Origin: Alphaproteobacteria bacterium | GTDB lineage: Bacteria > Pseudomonadota > Alphaproteobacteria > Sphingomonadales > JAKSBY01 | NCBI GenBank assembly: GCA_021774625.1 | Contig: JAJFIV010000034.1 | Coordinates: forward strand, 1-64,000 | Direction of reading: 5' to 3' | Length of the DNA stretch: 64,000 nucleotides | Shown: positions 58,158-59,874 of the stretch, one piece after another | Layout of the letters: each line of letters begins with the position of its first letter | How positions within the stretch are numbered: position 1 is the stretch's first letter | The notes under the pieces: generated by a model | What the model was told of the DNA's origin: nothing | Database searches by the model: none | The model's input: only the letters and a program-made list of their open reading frames with translations | Made by a program: the position numbers and the translations under genes

Positions 58158-58574
58158 TTGGCGGCGCTTAAGACGCAACCGAATGATGCCAGTGTTGATG
58201 ATTTTCTCACGGGCATCCCGGATGAGCGCCGCCGCAGGGAGACGCGAACCATCAAGGAGATGATGCAGCGCCTCACAGGCGAGCCGCCCACCATGTGGGG
58301 GCCGGGCATTATCGGCTTTGGCAGCTACCACTATAAATATGACAGCGGCCGGGAAGGCGACTGGTTTCTCACCGGCGTATCGCCCCGCAAGCAGTCACTC
58401 ACCGTCTATATCATGCCGGGGTTCAAGAATTATGACGCTCTCATGGCCCGGCTTGGCAAGCATAAAACCGGGGTCTCCTGTCTTTACATCAACAAACTGG
58501 ATAACGTGGATTTGGCCGTGCTGGAAGAGCTGATCAATCTCTCCGTCAAGCGCATGAGGGAGAAATATGGCTGA
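58158..58574 (+). CDS. DUF1801 domain protein
   Basis: 138 residues starting at TTG five bases after the peptidase gene. MWGPGIIGFGSYHYKYDSGREGDWFLTGVSPRKQSLTVYIMPGF and LGKHKTGVSCLYINKLDNVDLAVLEELI are typical of DUF1801, a small alpha/beta fold related to YdhG. Function unknown. The last third is repeated 938 bases downstream in a 100-bp direct repeat (99 of 100 identical). Confidence 0.85.
   Translation: MAALKTQPNDASVDDFLTGIPDERRRRETRTIKEMMQRLTGEPPTMWGPGIIGFGSYHYKYDSGREGDWFLTGVSPRKQSLTVYIMPGFKNYDALMARLGKHKTGVSCLYINKLDNVDLAVLEELINLSVKRMREKYG
58447..58546 (+). repeat. 100-bp direct repeat, copy 1 (inside DUF1801 gene)
   Basis: Bases 58447-58546 and 59385-59484 match at 99 of 100 positions; the only difference is G at 58480 versus A at 59418. 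Flanking bases differ on both sides. Confidence 0.97.
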
Positions 58575-58621
58575 ATTTAATGGGACATGGCCCTAATAGA
58601 AAAGCATGGCCAATATAAAAC

Positions 58622-58650
58622 AAAAAGCCGCGGCTCCAAGAACCGCGGCT
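58622..58650 (-). terminator. Rho-independent terminator of the PEP-CTERM gene
   Basis: On the minus strand, GCCGCGG / CCGCGGC (7 bp) with a 9-base loop, followed by TTTTTG and further T's. It lies about 24 bases after the PEP-CTERM stop. Confidence 0.88.
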
Positions 58651-58673
58651 AACTTCTGGAAAGTAAAACAGGA

Positions 58674-59237
58674 TCAGGCTGTCTTGCGCCGGCGTATCGC
58701 CCCAAGACCAAGCAGACCGAAACCAAACAACGCCAATGTGGCCGGTACCGGAATATGCTGCGCCTGGATCAGCAAGTGAAGAGACCCCTCAATCGGAAGG
58801 CCGGCGAAATTCAGTTGGATAAAGTCATCACCGAAATTGGCGCGGCTGTCGTTCCAGCCGGTCACCGATGACGTGATTGTCAGACCGGTAATAATGCCGG
58901 GGCCATCGACCCAATCCAGATCACTGATCACCAGTCCGTTGAAATTCTGAACAAACCAGCTAGCATCAAGCCCAGCAAATTCAATCCAGATAGAGCTTTC
59001 TTCAATATCGACCGTATAGCAGGCAACGCCACAAATATTATTAATGGACGTTAAATCACCTGTCCCCGCCTCGACAGTAACCCAGACACTCGTATTTCCA
59101 AAATTAGGAACGCTGCCGAGTGACGGAGATTGGTGCTGCAACAAAACCTCATCACCGATCAGGCCCGCATTGGCGGTGCCCGTCATGGCCAGCGCCACCA
59201 CAACACCAGCCGCCAGATTCTTTACTATGCCTATCAT
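58674..59237 (-). CDS. PEP-CTERM sorting-signal protein
   Basis: 187 residues: signal peptide (KNLAAGVVVALAMTGTANA), a beta-rich secreted domain with a Cys pair (NNICGVACYTV), and the C-terminal sorting signal VPATLALFGFGLLGLGAIRRRKTA: short motif, hydrophobic helix, basic tail. In other bacteria exosortase cleaves here and anchors or exports the protein, often with exopolysaccharide. No exosortase lies in the window. The gene sits between the two 100-bp repeats. Confidence 0.88.
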   Translation of the reverse strand: MIGIVKNLAAGVVVALAMTGTANAGLIGDEVLLQHQSPSLGSVPNFGNTSVWVTVEAGTGDLTSINNICGVACYTVDIEESSIWIEFAGLDASWFVQNFNGLVISDLDWVDGPGIITGLTITSSVTGWNDSRANFGDDFIQLNFAGLPIEGSLHLLIQAQHIPVPATLALFGFGLLGLGAIRRRKTA

Positions 59238-59604
59238 TTATCCCTCCTACTACTTTGCCCGGAAACCTGTTGTTAACCTCAAGCAAATTTCATGCCATAC
59301 AAATTATCTATTGCAAAACAAGTGGTTGGTGAAATGCTCTGGTATGACGACTTCTAAACTGTAAAGAATTCCGACACCCTTATACCCGGCTTGGCAAGCA
59401 TAAAACCGGGGTCTCCTATCTTTACATCAACAAACTGGATAACGTGGATTTGGCCGTGCTGGAAGAGCTGATCAATCTCTCCGTTAGCCATTTACACCAA
59501 TTCACTTTTCCCCGGTTTTATGCTTTAATGGAGTGAGGGATTTGAAACTCCCTTTTTAATAACCGGCTGCAAAGACAGCCTGGTTGCGTGCAGGATAAAA
59601 TATC
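59238..59604. other. Intergenic stretch carrying the copy-2 repeat
   Basis: 367 bases without an intact gene. It holds the second copy of the 100-bp repeat (59385-59484), a truncated piece of the DUF1801 coding sequence, and a 16-bp inverted copy of part of it (59510-59525). No promoter for the following gene is convincing. Confidence 0.6.
59385..59484 (+). repeat. 100-bp direct repeat, copy 2 (DUF1801 fragment)
   Basis: Copy of 58447-58546 with one substitution (A at 59418). The downstream 16 bases CCCCGGTTTTATGCTT (59510-59525) are the exact reverse complement of 59396-59411 within this copy, so the region holds a direct and an inverted fragment of the same sequence. Confidence 0.97.
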
Positions 59605-59874
59605 ATGAGTAATAAAGGTCTGGCCCTGACAGTGGCCGCCGGGCTGTGTCTTGCTGTTCCGTTTCCCGGACATGAAGCAGCGGCCACCCCGCTTTCATCC
59701 CTCACTGTCAATGGCCGTTATTCGATAGACGGGAATAGCAACAATCCGGCCAACCCTGGCTGGGGCAGTACGGGGTCGCCTTTAATGATTTTGTTTTTGT
59801 TGACGGCGATGTGCGTAATGCGCATGCGCCGAGAGCACCGGCGACCTCTTGATCAACACCTGCGCCGGGCATGA
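59605..59874 (+). pseudogene. Probable broken exported protein (peroxidase-like start?)
   Basis: Open frame of 89 codons: signal peptide (MSNKGLALTVAAGLCLAVPFPGHEAAA) then SIDGNSNNPANPGWGSTGSPL, which loosely resembles the start of heme-peroxidase-family proteins (IDGxGNN..NP.WG..GTP). After about residue 56 the frame turns into low-quality sequence, while another frame reads YGVAFNDFVFVDGDVRNAHAPR before a stop. This suggests a frameshifted and truncated gene. Family assignment is weak. Confidence 0.4.

Follow-up and report, generated by a model that had tools for sequence, protein, structure and literature searches.

Genes and features of the locus

The window, i.e. the whole stretch of 64,000 nucleotides that was analysed, carries an intact DUF1801 gene, which starts 5 bp after an M3 peptidase gene, and a PEP-CTERM gene on the opposite strand. 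An internal piece of the DUF1801 gene recurs on the far side of the PEP-CTERM gene, followed at a short distance by a smaller inverted piece of the same segment. The features of the locus are as follows:

58158-58574, plus strand: intact DUF1801 gene, source of the duplicated piece (Pfam PF08818, E=2.4e-10; 138 aa, TTG start)
58447-58546, plus strand: copy 1 (ancestral), internal to DUF1801, with a Cys codon at the difference
58572-58596, minus strand: degraded repeat TTAGGGCCATGTCCCATTAAATTCA resembling a transposon end and sharing bases with the DUF1801 stop codon
58626-58650, minus strand: hairpin terminator of the PEP-CTERM gene (AGCCGCGG/CCGCGGCT, then a T tract on the minus strand)
58674-59237, minus strand: PEP-CTERM protein gene, 187 aa, C-terminal PVPATLALFGFGLLGLGAIRRRKTA (PF07589, TIGR02595)
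59283-59296, minus strand: putative sigma-54 type promoter, GG-N10-GC (GGCATGAAATTTGC), 45 nt from the start codon, with the layout described in PMC1569441
59360-59376, minus strand: PrsR-type upstream box of 17 nt, gene strand TGTCGGAATTCTTTACA, ending in TTTACA, ~63 nt from the sigma-54 site
59385-59484, plus strand: copy 2 (derived), an orphan internal DUF1801 fragment in which the universal Cys codon has become TAT (Tyr)
59485-59509, no strand: 25-bp filler between copy 2 and the inverted piece
59510-59525, minus strand: 16-bp inverted piece of the duplicated segment, pairing with copy 2 as a dyad with a 16-bp stem

The two long copies form a direct repeat of 100 bp with 99/100 bases identical, and their starts lie 938 bp apart. 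The smaller piece is an exact inverted 16-mer, reading AAGCATAAAACCGGGG within the copies (58458-58473 and 59396-59411) and CCCCGGTTTTATGCTT at 59510-59525. Both recurrences, and the position of the PEP-CTERM gene with its own terminator between the long copies, had been reported in a first-pass annotation, and all were recovered here at the same coordinates. One route considered in the annotation involved the DUF1801 end; the duplicated piece does derive from this gene, but not from its end, as the gene extends for another 28 bp beyond copy 1, with its stop at 58574.

In the 2.99-Mb genome the 100-mer matches two places only, copy 1 and copy 2, and the search of the whole genome gave no further long copy elsewhere. 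A 100-bp match by chance is excluded, while for an exact 16-mer within the next ~120 bp our own rough arithmetic gives a chance expectation of ~6e-6. The pair is the only instance in the 64-kb window of exact direct repeats that exceed 15 bp and lie no more than 2 kb apart. Local duplications were counted over 225 kb of this genome, where it is the only close, near-identical case besides tandem arrays and likely paralogues; the remaining local repeats are tandem arrays, diverged paralogue-like repeats and short inverted pairs.

The 25-bp filler has no match in the organism's own genome and no significant local source, its best inverted local match (59320-59336) being at chance level and reached by 11% of random windows. 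To the right of the inverted piece, a marginal inverted match to 58844-58862 was likewise reached by 4% of random windows. The left flanks of both copies share a likeness (AAGAATT..GAC) that was not used, as 2.8% of random pairs equal it. A search of viral contigs did not return the junction. Further to the right, a short ORF at 59605-59874 has a signal-peptide-like start and no database match, and looks like a truncated gene relic; after its start it presumably resembles the beginning of a haem-peroxidase-type protein.

Source gene and polarity of the copies

Homologues of the DUF1801 protein align to residue 137-138, showing that the native C-terminus, usually of the form SVxxMxxKYG, is conserved. 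A sequence-based search for a solved structure of DUF1801 returned none. The codon with the single difference between the copies is TGT in copy 1, encoding Cys; in copy 2 it is TAT, for Tyr. Since Cys is found at this codon in all of the 95 homologous loci compared (95/95), copy 2 is the derived copy. On both sides, copy 1 runs on into the rest of the DUF1801 gene. Copy 2 has neither the 5' part nor the 3' end of the gene; to the left it abuts the PEP-CTERM spacer, to the right sequence that is unrelated. It contains neither a start codon nor an intact gene.

The near-identity of the copies had been taken in the annotation as proof of a recent event. The duplication is likely young, judging from its sequence, but one difference in 100 bases corresponds to a 95% interval of 0.03-5.4% divergence, which bounds the age only loosely, and gene conversion could hide the true age of the copies.

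Searches for the DUF1801, PEP-CTERM, DUF2189 and M3 peptidase proteins covered 40 genomes (this one and 39 relatives), with the GTDB contigs added for DUF1801; at the DNA level, the locus was compared with one other genome of the family. These searches yielded no relative with an empty site, and no locus with two of the neighbouring genes. DUF1801 is present in 15 of the 39 other genomes, and within the flanks compared it never adjoins the other window genes tested; the M3 and DUF2189 loci of the relatives were compared with a flank of 1.5 kb only. The one other family genome lacks both DUF1801 and the M3 peptidase.

The PEP-CTERM gene and its control region

The product of the PEP-CTERM gene, a surface protein, has a signal peptide-like N-terminus and scores above the cut-offs for the sorting domain in both PF07589 (25.0 bits, cut-off 20.7) and TIGR02595 (20 bits, cut-off 16). 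With this domain, the upstream box, the sigma-54 site at ~63 nt and a PrsR gene in the genome (C10:36438-37766; 704.6 bits, cut-off 502.6), the gene is predicted to be an ordinary member of a PrsR/sigma-54 regulon. The box pattern occurs at 20 sites in the genome, compared with three for a control pattern. The arrangement is similar to the published PrsK/PrsR/sigma-54 regulon (Haft et al. 2006, PMC1569441), in which the spacer between box and promoter has a mean of 62.8, and shares with it the single gene, the 17-nt box ending in TTTACA, the GG-N10-GC promoter and the presence of PrsR. RpoN-dependent expression has been shown for another PEP-CTERM gene (PMC9850573). The locus differs from the described regulon (PMC1569441) in two respects: beyond the box, at a distance of 8 bp, lies a duplicated DUF1801 fragment, and the sorting motif is P-V-P rather than the usual P-E-P, which makes processing of the protein by an exosortase uncertain. 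As copy 2 begins only beyond the box, the control region is intact, and regulation of the PEP-CTERM gene is probably undisturbed by the fragment.

Two other PEP-CTERM neighbourhoods in the genome contain repeats of different kinds. A 37-bp inverted repeat (94.6%; C33:329197-329233 and 330614-330650, locus L137 of this genome, G000) flanks another PEP-CTERM gene (329426-330322) and has no further occurrence in the genome. At C18:68935-69414 (locus L135), the end of the contig cuts off a 24-bp-type tandem array, not far from a PEP-CTERM box.

Origin of the duplicated pieces

The position of the PEP-CTERM gene between two direct repeats is reminiscent of transposable-element target-site duplications, and the annotation had proposed insertion with duplication of a target-side segment. 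Had the gene entered the DUF1801 end as one unit, either with target duplication or by an att-type replacement of the gene 3' end, this would also be in keeping with the transposon-end-like repeat at 58572-58596. In a target-site duplication the left copy carries the native 5' side and the right copy the native 3' side, so copy 2 should run into the native end of the gene, which it does not. A simple target-site duplication and an att-type replacement are ruled out because copy 1 keeps both native sides and copy 2 neither, and the annotation's proposal is not supported. Moreover, 100 bp is far longer than usual for a target duplication, the interval between the copies has neither a transposase nor any other recombinase ORF, with the one degraded end-like repeat as its only element-like feature, and PEP-CTERM neighbours elsewhere in the genome are without such copies (225 kb surveyed). 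Taken together, we regard insertion of the gene as a unit as very improbable. A mobile PEP-CTERM cassette was rejected as well, as the other PEP-CTERM genes in the surveyed 225 kb have no adjacent fragments of neighbouring genes.

The transposon-end-like repeat belongs to a degraded family (TTAGGGNCANGNCCCATTAAATTCA), found in the window at 58572-58596 (minus strand) and elsewhere at C26:15393-15663, C20:41016, C23:70370 and C30:50148. Six genome sites match at ≤2 mismatches, compared with none for a control pattern, and no exact match is present in 148 other genomes of the order. At C26 two ends form an inverted pair (271 bp), and probably do so at C20 as well; the window holds a single end.

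Among the remaining explanations the main rival starts from a tandem duplication of 58447-59384 (938 bp, comprising the DUF1801 end and the PEP-CTERM gene); the annotation, too, had listed a tandem duplication with later decay as a possible route. The second unit would then have shrunk by deletion to its initial 100 bp, with the inverted 16-mer arising separately. Tandem duplications are common in bacteria, and copy 2 starts exactly where a second 938-bp unit would be expected to start, in agreement with the spacing of the copies. The route does, however, require at least two or three events, namely the duplication, the deletion and a separate inverted event, and the sequence to the right of 59484 holds no remnant of the other parts of the unit; we therefore see it as a possible but distinctly less likely origin. 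A chimeric join made during assembly or amplification is unlikely, and more so than the tandem route. The assembly is a draft of 35 contigs, and inverted chimeras are known from whole-genome amplification, but the flanks on both sides are unique and lead into intact genes, the copies differ by one base, the contig is 101 kb long with the site far from its ends, and the assembly has a completeness of 100 and a contamination of 0.18.

We favour, with moderate confidence, a local templated insertion, of which the present structure would be a non-functional scar that left the PEP-CTERM control region intact. The inserted pieces copy the nearby segment 58447-58546, 100 bp in direct and 16 bp in inverted orientation, while the source gene itself is intact. 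Templated insertion is favoured because two pieces of one locus join in opposite orientations at one spot, because these pieces are unique in the genome, because copy 2 has the derived base and lacks native flanks, and because the 838-bp interval between the copies is free of transposase, integrase and long terminal repeats. The insertion may have arisen while the spacer upstream of the PEP-CTERM gene was being replicated, or while a break in it was being repaired. A DNA end would have switched templates to DUF1801 close by, and 100 bp would have been copied from there in the direct sense. A further switch would then have added 16 bp from this segment, now inverted, before rejoining that left the 25 bp of filler. 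Most likely this was a single event, and template switching is the most likely mechanism. The filler, for which the searches gave no significant source, counts against the reading.

Comparable structures are described in a double-strand-break study in yeast (PMC11724301), where two sequences of the same locus inserted in inverted orientation are common among complex insertions and template switching is proposed as the cause. The microhomology-mediated insertions treated there resemble the present case in that a single join brings together short pieces of one nearby locus, with two pieces facing opposite ways. The organism here is a bacterium, however, and the proposed mechanism is carried over from yeast. 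The foldback insertions given in that study are 5-34 bp, compared with 100 bp for the direct piece here, which counts against the templated-insertion reading.

A function of copy 2 and the inverted arm, e.g. as a structured RNA or as antisense to DUF1801, is suggested by the 16-bp-stem dyad and by the fold of 59385-59530 (z = -3.27). This z-score is a direct result of the inverted arm, and a search of Rfam gave no match to known RNA families at the locus; we find such a role hardly credible. The same lack of an Rfam match, together with the absence of a start codon or intact gene in copy 2, favours a non-functional scar, and copy 2 with its inverted arm probably has no function.

Consequences of the repeat structure

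A crossover between the copies is predicted to delete 938 bp including the PEP-CTERM gene, and to give a DUF1801 product of 146 residues in which the last eight (KRMREKYG) are exchanged for the 16-residue tail SHLHQFTFPRFYALME. That the copies actually serve as a deletion switch, with recombination removing the PEP-CTERM gene, swapping the DUF1801 tail and so giving reproducible two-state variation in a population, is extremely doubtful. Beyond its patchwork structure, the locus is a case of ordinary genome decay.

As a templated insertion, the locus would represent a compact bacterial patchwork whose pieces come, in both orientations, from a single gene next to it. Scars of this type have been better documented in the genomes of yeast and humans. 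Direct repeats around a gene need not mean that the gene is mobile, and which of the copies keeps the native ends decides the question of mobility even without relatives. A second partial local copy of DUF1801 was seen in an unrelated Anaerolineales genome (L086:3901-4075), where the first 175 bp of the gene are duplicated ~1.1 kb upstream with 91% identity.
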